A DNA stretch of 64,000 nt from Martelella mediterranea (lineage in GTDB: Bacteria; Pseudomonadota; Alphaproteobacteria; Rhizobiales; Rhizobiaceae). Below, in pieces: positions 21,147 through 24,953 of this stretch. Under the pieces are notes generated by a model that was not told where the DNA came from, searched no databases, and worked only from the letters and a program-made list of their open reading frames with translations. The stretch spans positions 1 to 64,000 of the forward strand of contig PVUG01000012.1 of the NCBI GenBank assembly GCA_003001975.1, in the 5' to 3' direction. Position 1 is the stretch's first letter, and each line of letters starts with the position of its first letter. Position numbers and translations under genes: made by a program.

Positions 21147-21174
21147 GAGCGCCCTGTAACTCTTGAGGGCGCTC
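21147..21174. promoter_or_regulatory. Strong inverted repeat upstream of typA
   Basis: GAGCGCCCT (21147-21155) and AGGGCGCTC (21166-21174) are perfect 9-bp arms around a 10-nt loop, 45-72 bp before the typA ATG. No T-run follows on the minus strand. It could end the iron operon transcript, structure the typA leader or be an operator. Confidence 0.45.
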
Positions 21175-21263
21175 TTACACATTTTTTGACGAAAACGAAA
21201 GAGAATGTTTTGTGGCGGGGTTTGCGGGGTGTTGTCCGCCCTGTCGCAACGGAGCCGAATCCG

Positions 21264-21890
21264 TCAGCCTGACAGGCCCGGCTGGCAGGCATCGAGACGG
21301 TGTGTCAGCAGGTCGTAGAGCGCGCCACCGGTCTGGGGGCGGCCATTGCGGGACTTGAACGGCGCGCGGATCTTGTCTTCCGGCTTGAACACCGGCAGGT
21401 GGCCCTTGGGCGCGTCGTCGGGGGAAAACGACATCGCGTCATAGGTCAGCCATTCGCCATCCCTGCGCCAGCCGACGGCCTCACCGAAGGCGACCAGCGT
21501 TTCCGGGGCCGATGACAGCAGCACGCCATCCGGGGTGGTTTCCAGCAGGGCGTCCAGCACCTCGCGCTGGGCGGAAAGCCCGAACTTGCCGCCGGAGGCT
21601 TCGGCAAACAGCCGGTCCATATAGATGATGTCGGCGCAGGGCAGGTTTTCGACGTCGTCCTTGCCGAGCCAGCCCTCATTGGTGCGGTTGGCGAGTACCA
21701 GTGTGATTTCCGAGGCCTCGGTGTTGGCGGCCCGGAAATCGCCGTTGGCGAGGTCGGCGCGTAGTTGTTCGTAGCGGTGCGCGGGATTATAGGCCGCCCG
21801 GCCCTGAAGGAAGGTGAGCGCGGAGATGACGACAATCGCGATAACGCCGCAGACGGCAACAAGGGTCTTGTTTTCAAGAAGTTTTTTCAT
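21264..21890 (-). CDS. Membrane-anchored GUN4-domain protein
   Basis: This 208-residue protein has one membrane helix (about 9-28), then a GUN4 domain (about 38-170). Family landmarks are visible in order: ANGDFRAANTEA, EGWLGKDDVENLPCADI, MDRLF..ASGGKFGLSAQ, AVGWRRDGEWLTY and DDAPKGHLP. In cyanobacteria and plants GUN4 binds protoporphyrin and Mg-protoporphyrin and stimulates Mg-chelatase. No chelatase or photosynthesis gene is seen here. The gene begins 12 bp after feoB on the same strand, behind feoA and ftnA, so a role linked to iron or haem status at the membrane is inferred. The domain call is firm; the function is open. Confidence 0.8.
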   Translation of the reverse strand: MKKLLENKTLVAVCGVIAIVVISALTFLQGRAAYNPAHRYEQLRADLANGDFRAANTEASEITLVLANRTNEGWLGKDDVENLPCADIIYMDRLFAEASGGKFGLSAQREVLDALLETTPDGVLLSSAPETLVAFGEAVGWRRDGEWLTYDAMSFSPDDAPKGHLPVFKPEDKIRAPFKSRNGRPQTGGALYDLLTHRLDACQPGLSG

Positions 21891-21902
21891 CTGTTCTCTC
21901 CC

Positions 21903-23741
21903 TCACTCAAAGCCCAGCAGAAGGGCGCCCTGATAGAAGGCGAAGGCGATCAGCCACGCATAGAGGAGAGACACGACCAGCGAGAAGATCATGAAGCCCC
22001 ATGACCGGCTTTCCGCCTTCACGGTGGCGACCGTGGTCAGGCAGGGGGTGTAGAGCAGACAGAACAGACAGAAGGAATAGGCCGCAGCCGGCGATACGGT
22101 CGTCGCGATCTGATGGGCGACGAGGCCGGACGACATTGCGTAGATGGTCGACAGCGAGCCGATCACCACTTCCTTGGCGATGAAGCCGAAGATCAGCGCC
22201 AGCGTCAGATAGGCGTTGATGCCGATCGGGGCCATGACTGGCTGCAGCAGTTCGCCGAGCTGACCGCCCCAGGTGTCGAGGCCCGTGGCGTTGGTCGGGA
22301 AATTGGTGAGGAACCACACGGCGACGGTGCCGATGATGATGAAGTTGGTGGCGCGATGCAGGAATTCCCTAAGTTCGCCAAAGCCGCGCAGCCACACCTG
22401 TCTCAGCGTCGGCACCCGATAGGGCGGCAGTTCCAGCACGAAAGGCTCGGTGTTCTTGAACTGTTTGGAGCGGGAGAAGATGGCCGCCGCCAGAAACGCC
22501 GCCGCGAAGGAAATGACGTAGAAGGAAAACAGCACGAACGGGCCTTGTGCGGGCGGGAAGACGGCGGCGATGATGAACACGAACACCGCCAGCCGCGCCG
22601 AACAGAGCGAAAACGGGATGATCAGCATCGACAGCAGGCGCAAAGGCTGCGAGCGCATCACCCGCGTGCCCATCAGCGCCGGCACGTTGCAGCCGAAACC
22701 CATCATTTGCATCACGAAGGAGCGGCCGTCCAGACCGATGCGGCGCATCCAGGTATCCATCAGATAGGCCGCGCGCGACAGATAACCGCTGTCCTCCACC
22801 GCCGCCATGCAGAAGAAGAACAGCATGATCAGCGGCACGAAGGAGGCGACGGTGGCCACGCCAAGCCAGATGCCGTTGATGACGAAATTCTGCAGCCAGC
22901 TCGGGCCGAGGCTCAGCACGGGTTCGAGAATCCGGTTCTGGATCCAGTCGGTGATAATGCCGACCCAGTCCTGCGAGGGCAGGCCGATGGTCCAGACGAC
23001 ATAGAACACGAACAGCATGACCGCGAAAAACAGCGGCAGGCCGAACACCGGGTGCAGCAGGAAGCGGTCGAGCTTCTGGGTGATTGTCTGCGGCGGCACG
23101 TCGGGATAGACAACCGCGCCGGAAAGCGTTTCGGCCAGCGTTTCCTCGGTCATCAGCGTTTCGCGCAGCGCGTCGTAGTCGGCATAGGCCGGCGGGGTGT
23201 TTTCCCGTACGGACAGCATCTCGTCGACGCTGGAGATCGCCTCGGGATAGCCCTCGCCATATTTGGCGCTGATCAGGTGGACCGGCATGCCGAGCCGGGC
23301 CGAAAGCGCTTCCGTGTCGATTTCGATGCCGTTCTTGCGGGCCTCGTCGACCATGTTCAGCATCACCACGGCGGGCAGGCCCAGCTGCCTGATCTGTAGA
23401 GGCATCAGGATCTGCCGGTCGATCTGGCTGGCATTCATGACGACGATCACGAGGTCGACCGGATAGGTTTTCAGAAAGTCGGCGACGACGGTTTCGTCTT
23501 CGGAAAAACCTTCCAGATCGTAGATGCCGGGCAGGTCGACGAATTCGACCTCGCGGCCGGAAAGCGTCACCCGTGCATTGGAGAGCGACACCGTGATTCC
23601 CGGCCAGTTGCCGACATAGGCGCCGGCGCCGGTAATCCGGTTATAGAGCATCGACTTGCCGGTATTCGGCTGGCCGAGCATGGCAATGCGGGGGACGTCG
23701 TTGGCTTCAAGATTGGCCTGGGCGGGCGAACAGTGGCTCAT
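21903..23741 (-). CDS. feoB: Ferrous iron transporter FeoB
   Basis: This 612-residue protein has an N-terminal G domain followed by about 8 or more membrane spans. It imports Fe(II) across the inner membrane. G motifs are visible: GQPNTGKS (G1), WPGITV (G2), DLPGIYDL (G3), LNMVDEA (G4) and ISAKYGEG (G5). The two gate regions contain SLCSARLAVF and LLYTPCLTTVATVKAE with conserved Cys. It is shorter than the roughly 770-residue E. coli protein but complete in domains. The ATG at 23741 follows GGAAG; an upstream ATG at 23774 is less likely. feoA lies upstream and a GUN4 gene 12 bp downstream. Confidence 0.95.
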   Translation of the reverse strand: MSHCSPAQANLEANDVPRIAMLGQPNTGKSMLYNRITGAGAYVGNWPGITVSLSNARVTLSGREVEFVDLPGIYDLEGFSEDETVVADFLKTYPVDLVIVVMNASQIDRQILMPLQIRQLGLPAVVMLNMVDEARKNGIEIDTEALSARLGMPVHLISAKYGEGYPEAISSVDEMLSVRENTPPAYADYDALRETLMTEETLAETLSGAVVYPDVPPQTITQKLDRFLLHPVFGLPLFFAVMLFVFYVVWTIGLPSQDWVGIITDWIQNRILEPVLSLGPSWLQNFVINGIWLGVATVASFVPLIMLFFFCMAAVEDSGYLSRAAYLMDTWMRRIGLDGRSFVMQMMGFGCNVPALMGTRVMRSQPLRLLSMLIIPFSLCSARLAVFVFIIAAVFPPAQGPFVLFSFYVISFAAAFLAAAIFSRSKQFKNTEPFVLELPPYRVPTLRQVWLRGFGELREFLHRATNFIIIGTVAVWFLTNFPTNATGLDTWGGQLGELLQPVMAPIGINAYLTLALIFGFIAKEVVIGSLSTIYAMSSGLVAHQIATTVSPAAAYSFCLFCLLYTPCLTTVATVKAESRSWGFMIFSLVVSLLYAWLIAFAFYQGALLLGFE

Positions 23742-23890
23742 AGCGGCTTCCAGATAGCTGACCGGACACGGCAATATCGCAGCCTGACCGGAGTGTTCGT
23801 CTTTGGACGCACCGGAAAGGAAATCTCCGGCGGCGTATATTCAGCGTCTGACCCTGTGTGCCCTTTGGACATCTTTGATATATCGCTGGC

Positions 23891-23910
23891 CTGCGCCCTT
23901 CAGGGCGCAG
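23891..23910. repeat. Hairpin between feoA and feoB
   Basis: CTGCGCCCT and AGGGCGCAG form a perfect 9-bp stem with a 2-nt centre, about 20 bp after the feoA stop. It has no T-run. It may set the relative amounts of FeoA and FeoB by mRNA processing or partial termination. Confidence 0.45.
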
Positions 23911-23931
23911 ACCGGGTGCTGAACTCCGTTT

Positions 23932-24213
23932 TCAGAGCTTGCGAACCTTGACGAGTGCGGCTTCCGCGCGGCGGATGGCGATTTCGGTCGCCTTTCCGGC
24001 GCGCACGACCAGTGGCCCGCCAAACCAGGCGCGCCGGACCATGGAAACCTGGTGGGTGCTGGAAAGGCCAAGGGCCCTCAGCCGCACCGAAAGTCCGTTT
24101 TCGAAATCGCCGGCCTCGACGATTTCGACGATGCCGCTTTCGCCGGGCTGAAGACTTTCAAGCGAGACGATCCGGCCTTCGCGCAGCGTCTCCATGGTCG
24201 GGTCGTTGCTCAT
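23932..24213 (-). CDS. feoA: Ferrous iron transport accessory protein FeoA
   Basis: This 93-residue cytoplasmic protein has an SH3-like FeoA domain: LESLQPGESGIVEIVEA, then VRLRALGLSSTHQVSMVRRAWFGGPLVV. FeoA binds or regulates FeoB in Fe(II) uptake. Its ATG overlaps the ftnA stop by 4 bp (ATGA), so both are translated from one mRNA. feoB follows after 190 bp, unusually far for a feoAB pair, with a hairpin between. No feoC is seen. Confidence 0.9.
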   Translation of the reverse strand: MSNDPTMETLREGRIVSLESLQPGESGIVEIVEAGDFENGLSVRLRALGLSSTHQVSMVRRAWFGGPLVVRAGKATEIAIRRAEAALVKVRKL

Positions 24214-24713
24214 TCGTGTCCCATGCCCGCGATTTCGCGATCGATGTAGTAATTGGCATGCGGGCCATCACCGATCAGGTCAATCTTGTCGAGGATATCG
24301 CCGAAAAGGGTTTCTTCCTCCCGCTGTTCGCGCACGAACCACTGCAGGAATTCGAAGGTGGCGTGGTCGCCTTCCTCTTCGGCGCGGGTGGTGGCCGCAT
24401 AGATGTTGCGGGTGACCTGTTTTTCGGTCTCCAGAATGGCGGCGAACAGGTCCCGCGGCGTTTCCGCCTTGATTTCGGGCGCTTCCATGCCGTCAATCTT
24501 TACGGCGAAGTCGAGGTCGAACAGATAGGCCAGGAAGCGGCGCATATGATCGAGTTCCTCATTGGCATGGCCGAGAAGGAAGGTCTGGCAGCCGGACATG
24601 TTGCGCTGGTTGCACCATGCGGCAGCCTGAAAATAAAACCGTGCGGCTTCCATTTCGCCGTTCAGGAGCTCATTGAGCTGCGGTGCCATGGCACCGGCAT
24701 TGGTTACGGTCAT
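24210..24713 (-). CDS. ftnA: Non-haem ferritin, FtnA type
   Basis: This 167-residue iron-storage protein forms a 24-mer shell that oxidises Fe(II) and stores it as a mineral. Ferroxidase residues are in place: E in LNGEMEAARFYF, EELDH in the second helix, E in ETEKQVT and the REQREEETLF stretch. FEFLQWFVREQREEE closely matches the E. coli FtnA motif, and no haem-ligand Met of bacterioferritin is evident. The ATG at 24713 was chosen because GGAAAGGAAATGCA precedes it; the one at 24734 lies before this site. It is first gene of the ftnA-feoA-feoB-gun4 cluster. Confidence 0.9.
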   Translation of the reverse strand: MTVTNAGAMAPQLNELLNGEMEAARFYFQAAAWCNQRNMSGCQTFLLGHANEELDHMRRFLAYLFDLDFAVKIDGMEAPEIKAETPRDLFAAILETEKQVTRNIYAATTRAEEEGDHATFEFLQWFVREQREEETLFGDILDKIDLIGDGPHANYYIDREIAGMGHE

Positions 24714-24776
24714 TGCATTTCCTTTCCTGTCCATCCGCTATTTCTATGACACGCGGCATAATTGCGTGCAAGATAC

Positions 24777-24803
24777 TTAACTAAAATGGACAACATTTAT
24801 TAA
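24777..24803. promoter_or_regulatory. AT-rich imperfect inverted repeat upstream of ftnA
   Basis: TTAACTAAAATG (24777-24788) and CATTTATTAA (24794-24803) flank GACAA, 64-90 bp before the ftnA start, in the promoter zone. An AT-rich dyad fits an iron-responsive operator (Fur, Irr or RirA class), but it does not clearly match the consensus of any one of them. Confidence 0.35.
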
Positions 24804-24953
24804 AGTGCTGTAATCGCGTCTGAAAACGGATATTCACTTGATATGTGAGTTTTCATGAACGTTAGCTGAACATGACCTATGTCAATTCCGGCTTTTGTGC
24901 ATGTGTTGCCATCCGGCAGACGCAGGAACCGGCTATCGTCCTCAAAAACGGAC

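Follow-up and report, generated by a model that had tools for sequence, protein, structure and literature searches.

A GUN4-like gene that accompanies a ferritin gene at the feoAB locus of Martelella

The subject of this analysis is a gene at 21264..21890 in a 64,000-nucleotide stretch of the Martelella mediterranea genome (contig PVUG01000012.1, positions 1 to 64,000; this whole stretch is called the window below), which encodes a putative membrane-anchored protein of the GUN4 family and is the last gene of an iron-related series. Comparison across 13 Martelella species genomes, the window's own included, suggests that the ferritin and GUN4-like genes, which flank feoAB, have been gained or lost together while feoAB mostly stays in place. 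Our preferred explanation, to which we assign a probability of roughly 0.4, is that the GUN4-like protein would be a ferritin-linked membrane accessory of the ferrous iron transporter FeoB, with its domain held outside the cytoplasm.

Linkage with the ferritin gene

A profile search detected the GUN4-like gene in six of the 13 species genomes (designated by G numbers, G000 being that of the window), and in all six the order ferritin–feoA–feoB–GUN4 is kept, with the GUN4-like gene beginning 9–12 bp past the feoB stop codon; the gap in the window is 12 bp, as a preliminary description of this DNA had reported. A ferritin gene precedes feoA at the feoB locus in 6/6 GUN4-positive and 0/7 GUN4-negative species, and a whole-genome ferritin search of the 13 genomes returned full orthologues in exactly the six GUN4-bearing ones, while a 25-residue remnant in G201 and distant hits (25%) in three negative genomes, G201, G202 and G206, made up the other matches. 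The preliminary description had tied the gene to feoB. That tie gives way here to one with the ferritin, as 12 of the 13 genomes keep a full-length feoB and six have GUN4; six of the seven GUN4-negative species keep feoA as well as a full-length feoB, and co-occurrence with feoB was thus rejected as the main signal. The upstream neighbour uxaA, found at the locus in three of six positives and six of seven negatives, is out of step with the GUN4 pattern.

In G201, 20 N-terminal and 18 C-terminal ferritin codons (38 in all) persist in frame directly before feoA, so that a ferritin gene was once present there and was then lost. In G206, only about residues 547–623 of feoB are left (L049, 8024–8254), 58 bp behind a uxaA match, and feoA, most of feoB and the ferritin gene (if once there) are missing. 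No GUN4 remnant was found between feoB and typA in any of the seven negatives (best E 0.09, in G200), nor did a genome-wide profile search match one, and decayed GUN4 genes in the negative species were rejected on these grounds; the scars at the locus do not show whether GUN4 or the ferritin was lost first in G201, G202 and G206. We also rejected the feoB of G200 as a pseudogene, since the TAG in question sits just before the start codon. Farther afield, a matching ferritin occurs in three of 199 family genomes, the window's own among them; a ferritin–feo series elsewhere in the family was rejected, as the 15 kb taken around each of the other two ferritins (48% and 43%) gave no feoA, feoB or GUN4 match.

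The GUN4-positive species do not form one clade (approximately unbiased test, p 1.3e-101 with rpoB and 5.8e-4 with rpoB plus typA), and the shared ferritin/GUN4 pattern requires three changes on the tree. The gene is also under selection: the median ratio of nonsynonymous to synonymous substitution rates (dN/dS) over 15 species pairs is 0.30 for GUN4, 0.08 for the ferritin, 0.09 for feoA, 0.11 for feoB and 0.07 for typA, so that the GUN4-like gene is under constraint, yet is the loosest of the five genes compared. Because the same series recurs in all six GUN4-positive species and dN/dS stands at 0.30, the locus is more than a chance arrangement.

Distribution and family membership

Within the genome samples, the gene is confined to this genus. 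It was found in 1/199 family, 1/347 order, 1/385 class and 1/398 phylum genomes, in samples that overlap, and the genome in question was each time that of the window. When the single protein was used to scan 84,980 genomes of named species, one locus was returned, in Martelella mediterranea (79% identical, same gene order), although such a scan reaches close relatives only, given that six genus genomes carry the gene. The neighbourhood linkage proposed in the preliminary description is therefore not peculiar to this strain, holding in all six GUN4-bearing species of the genus, and in these samples it does not spread through the Hyphomicrobiales. There was no GUN4 match in phage records or viral contigs, and a viral or phage origin was rejected, PHROGs giving one weak hit (E 0.028). 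Plasmid records, by contrast, included 32 with a GUN4 relative at E 0.01, and all 32 are cyanobacterial by genus name (taxonomy lines for five). In the literature collection searched, nothing joined GUN4 with Martelella or with Rhizobiales, and GUN4 was paired with FeoB in nothing beyond a Synechocystis review; operons that combine a ferritin with feo genes may exist elsewhere.

Identification as a GUN4-domain protein, made in the preliminary description from the letters alone, was borne out. The protein scores 92.5 bits with PF05419, whose cut-off is 29.2 (E 3.5e-26, residues 38–168), the landmarks NLPCADI, DRLF, GKFGLSAQ, GWRRDGEWL and APKGHLP all occur in its translation, and all six matches in the genus exceed the PF05419 cut-off; among 14 control genomes, PF05419 matched one, that of Synechococcus elongatus. 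Searched against the PDB with phmmer, the single protein found the GUN4 structures 4ykb, 1z3x and 1z3y (E 1.3e-7 to 6.5e-6), and a profile of 11 relatives found five distinct GUN4 sequences (E 1.9e-25 to 6.8e-19) and nothing besides GUN4 at E 0.001. A structure model built from two sequences reached a mean pLDDT of 55.5; with this low-confidence model, Foldseek placed GUN4 chains at ranks 1–14 (best E 1.4e-3, TM-scores 0.33–0.48), and the top eight rows from VIA were GUN4 at Z 5.1–6.1, followed by other, mostly helical, proteins from Z 4.4 down, although Z under about 13 can reflect a common arrangement in helical proteins. We take a GUN4 fold to be likely, and by its sequence the protein is a member of the GUN4 family, not a GUN4 orthologue. 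PADLOC returned the anti-phage protein PD-T4-6 at 75.3 bits, which we rejected as the match spans only model positions 308–448 of 450. That model, PDLC04062, includes a GUN4-like stretch at about positions 307–448, and GUN4-domain proteins may be mis-called as PD-T4-6 through it.

The closest relative found is a trypsin–GUN4 protein of a Cylindrospermopsis plasmid, 40% identical over residues 36–168; other plasmid matches include proteins annotated as kinases and one with an effector-associated domain. A match to a Microcystis paralogue extends to residue 199, and the PC of the 'NFPC/NLPC' segment is common to four of the five cyanobacterial paralogues aligned. As judged from these alignments, the GUN4 part of the window protein resembles the cyanobacterial GUN4-domain paralogues rather than the Mg-chelatase cofactor, and a cyanobacterial paralogue may have been transferred into the genus, a proposal drawn from plasmid records. 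PMC7159879 and PMC8195603 describe the settings of such paralogues as sensor or conflict systems.

Ligand-site residues and the conserved segment

The preliminary description suggested that the protein may sense porphyrin or haem at the inner membrane and match FeoB import to haem synthesis, or supply ferrochelatase with iron; such a sensor would bind in the canonical GUN4 way. Membership of the GUN4 family and the place in the feo series speak for this sensor, as does the retention of aromatic or basic residues at some pocket positions. We mapped the site by aligning our profile to Synechocystis GUN4 (1y6i), with numbering by hand and an uncertain loop alignment; on this footing W192 corresponds to Y150, W198 to F155 and R217 to R175 in the window protein. 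W189 likewise corresponds to W147, F196 to M153, L209 to V167, N211 to K169, L213 to E171 and R214 to D172. The LxNxLR motif, given as the bilin motif of GUN4 in PMC10156173, is absent: LLNQLR of 1y6i aligns with VFKPED, and across the six orthologues this stretch is VFKP(E/K/R)D. Changes to F191 and R211 of Arabidopsis GUN4 weaken porphyrin binding according to PMC8967248, and in our hand-numbered alignment, uncertain in the loop, F191 aligns with Met153 and R211 (Synechocystis R214) with an invariant Asp172. With these two residues replaced by Met and Asp, tetrapyrrole binding cannot be assumed. The sensor is further opposed by the predicted periplasmic side (below) and by the gene's following the ferritin rather than feoB, and taken together we consider it quite unlikely.

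The Mg-chelatase partner also appears to be missing. None of the 13 genus genomes matched BchH (TIGR02025), whereas the control search matched five of 14 genomes, three over the cut-off and Synechococcus elongatus among the five. With no BchH match, no LxNxLR and an Asp at the porphyrin-binding Arg, the window protein is, on the aligned residues, not a Mg-chelatase GUN4.

Despite these replacements, this part of the protein is strongly kept. In the segment 159–195, 29 of 37 positions are invariant among the six orthologues, vs 69 of 139 elsewhere within residues 33–208 (p 0.0013, for a region chosen after the alignment had been seen), and a surface here is perhaps kept for something besides the canonical GUN4 duty. 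One such duty might be protein–protein docking, with the GUN4 fold serving as a structural partner of FeoB and binding no tetrapyrrole. Docking is favoured by the replacement of the canonical ligand residues together with the fact that conservation among the six orthologues peaks in this very segment, yet the same data also fit an altered tetrapyrrole pocket. A domain in the periplasm would have no direct access to a ferritin in the cytoplasm, which would leave the tie to the ferritin indirect, and on balance we regard docking as unlikely.

Membrane anchor and predicted side

Each of the six orthologues has one strong hydrophobic segment, at residues 10–28, in agreement with the single N-terminal helix noted earlier for the window protein. 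Ahead of this anchor the net charge is +2 to +3, and over the 15 residues that follow it is -2 to +2, the N-terminal side being the more positive in 6/6. Under the positive-inside rule the more positive flank of a membrane segment stays cytoplasmic, giving an N-in/C-out arrangement, and the charge counts therefore predict a periplasmic location for the domain. Two cysteines are invariant in the six orthologues, Cys85 and a C-terminal one (Cys202 in the window), and together with the anchor charges they suggest that the domain is periplasmic. Flanking charges of this kind, small as the margin is in the window protein, are hard to square with cytoplasmic sensing or with the feeding of ferrochelatase.

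A domain on that side might also be a periplasmic haem or porphyrin binder, acting as a scavenger or photoprotectant that shares the series because the same conditions call for it and that does not touch FeoB. Such a binder would agree with both the family match and the predicted side, but it does not in itself account for the ferritin tie, and we think it very unlikely.

Proposed role and points against it

We return to the reading of the protein as a ferritin-linked FeoB accessory. Ferritin and the GUN4-like protein would form an optional pair around the FeoAB uptake system, with FeoAB standing alone in sister species; FeoB would import Fe2+ and the ferritin store it. The anchored GUN4-like protein, its domain most likely at the inner membrane on the side of the periplasm, would act on FeoB and fit import to storage through the conserved, re-made segment 159–195, which might either bind a tetrapyrrole such as haem or make contact with a partner protein. 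We infer that the series is co-transcribed, that the domain is periplasmic, that the gene is of cyanobacterial origin and that its product acts on FeoB. The reading given in the preliminary description is, as a whole, partly supported, and the partner to think about is the ferritin.

Several observations weigh against the proposed role, first among them the phylogenetic ones. There are just two to three independent changes, all concordant (sign test p 0.25–0.5), and for this reason the ferritin–GUN4 tie is suggestive, not significant. The negatives G201, G202 and G206 are placed beside the positive G205 (91 and 97% bootstrap in two trees), and rpoB places G200 beside the positives G203, G204 and G208 (98 and 99%). 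Contrary to that placement, the feoB tree keeps the G200 gene apart from those of the positives (77/95), and the double absence in G200 may therefore be a whole-locus swap. The ferritin and feoA trees join G000 with G205 (99–100%), and in the GUN4 tree G000 sits closer to G203/G204/G208 (weakly, 51/17), so that the two genes need not share all their history. It is conceivable, then, that the pattern reflects descent and exchange, with versions of the locus that have or lack the ferritin and GUN4 passed whole between species, and that it has little bearing on function. The conflict in G200 and the small number of independent changes are what such exchange would leave behind, and it is compatible with every other reading considered here; on the other side, the feoB genes of G201 and G202 group with that of GUN4-positive G205 at 100/100, and the in-place ferritin deletion scar in G201 records a loss, not a swap. 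We judge exchange somewhat unlikely as the explanation of the pattern.

The remaining points against the accessory role concern the proteins themselves. Other ferritin-superfamily genes are present in 13/13 genus genomes, and the operon ferritin is therefore not the sole iron store. The topology rests on charge counts, which in the window protein differ by a single charge (+2 before vs +1 after the anchor). Cys85 is common to four of the five cyanobacterial paralogues aligned and so did not arise for a disulfide here; the fold model of the GUN4-like protein is poor, and the proposed cyanobacterial origin rests on plasmid records. As a separate observation, one of the other ferritin-superfamily genes, at G000:C12:146512-146916, looks bacterioferritin-like by eye; rows for several loci of this superfamily, whose assigned frames were improbable and antisense-looking, were set aside.

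Rockwell and Lagarias (2023, PMC10156173) treat GUN4 as confined to oxygenic phototrophs. The bacterium studied here is apparently non-photosynthetic, and in its alphaproteobacterial genus, which has no BchH match, a GUN4-like gene under selection that sits among feo genes and goes with a ferritin offers a small system for the role of the GUN4 fold away from chlorophyll synthesis; the locus also raises the question whether FeoB works with additional accessory proteins in the membrane. Naturally occurring pairs of species that have or lack the genes make the question directly testable.

Gene series and flanking regions

The features of the series are collected in Table 1. The start of feoA overlaps the ferritin stop by four bases, and a terminator scan found no terminator-like site in the window between feoB and the GUN4-like gene. 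FeoB exceeds its equivalog cut-off (TIGR00437, 550.3 bits vs 315.65). The preliminary description set the GUN4-like gene in line with feoA and ftnA; both genes do lie upstream on the same strand, but the ferritin falls under the cut-off of the NCBIfam non-heme ferritin equivalog NF007638 (114.5 vs 178 bits), which makes 'FtnA-like ferritin' a safer name than 'ftnA'.

Table 1. Features of the ferritin–feoAB–GUN4 series in the window.
Feature	Position	Strand	Evidence or description
GUN4-like gene, 208 aa, ATG start	21264..21890	-	PF05419; six orthologues aligned; hydropathy and charges; fold search (GUN4 structures first, low-confidence model)
GUN4-like protein layout			N-terminal anchor, hydrophobic core 10–28; GUN4 match 38–168; C-terminal segment with conserved stretch 159–195; Cys202
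feoB, ferrous iron transporter, 623 aa	21903..23774	-	TIGR00437, PF02421, PF07670, PF07664
feoA	23932..24213	-	PF04023, 47.3 bits vs cut-off 23
FtnA-like ferritin	24210..24734	-	PF00210, 113.6 bits vs cut-off 24.5
Region 5' of series	24735..24850	-	Holds TTTTAGTTAAGTATCTTGC, partly kept in several sister species

For feoB, translation may begin later than the listed TTG, at an ATG farther downstream (MSHCSPA...) that fits the start of the M. mediterranea open reading frame. The window's genome also holds a second, distant FeoB, an 858-aa open frame at G000:C9:155829-157616 that is 34–42% identical in pieces, the like of which occurs only in G202 and G206 among the 13 genus genomes. On the far side of the series, before typA, a stretch at 21150–21225 (ACAAAACATTCTCTTTCGTTTTCGTCAAAA) is strongly conserved in eight of nine species aligned and diverged in G161; it is perhaps the typA promoter region.

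Upstream of the ferritin, the region holding TTTTAGTTAAGTATCTTGC was compared by eye among the upstream sequences of 12 species and is, on that reading, a possible promoter; a sigma-70 consensus scan gave no match in 24735..24850. Irr-box-like palindromes, with three mismatches to the Irr-box consensus, lie 188–302 bp before feoA in the GUN4-negative species G081, G207 and G161 (L045, L047, L048), where one to seven of 300 shuffles were as good. The GUN4-positive G208 has a different three-mismatch match before its ferritin gene, with seven of 300 shuffles as good. Counted together, such a match is present in three of the six GUN4-negatives with feoA vs one of the six GUN4-positives, two of the three being sister species. 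A more adventurous idea is that haem control of Fe2+ uptake has moved from DNA, at the Irr-box, to the membrane, where an anchored tetrapyrrole-binding domain would gate FeoB and couple import to the filling of ferritin. The Irr-box pattern lends weak support to a shift of this kind, which we consider highly improbable; if true, membrane haem-gating of FeoB would for the first time show the GUN4 fold in use beyond the oxygenic phototrophs.

Comparison with known systems

The window protein shares its family with the cyanobacterial and plastid GUN4, the Mg-chelatase cofactor, whose solved chains are found by sequence. Unlike that cofactor, it has an N-terminal anchor, lacks LxNxLR and has replacements at the porphyrin residues that have been tested, and it occurs in a genus in which, unlike the setting of the cofactor, there is no BchH match. 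The cyanobacterial GUN4-domain paralogues examined are mostly longer, multidomain proteins with protease, kinase or effector-associated domains, whereas the window protein consists of a single anchored domain and is encoded among iron genes. FeoC, the small protein of feo systems, is a winged-helix protein and not GUN4-like. The feoAB operons likewise place a small gene behind feoA and feoB, but the Martelella series departs from them in that its small gene is GUN4-like rather than feoC and in that a ferritin gene leads the series.

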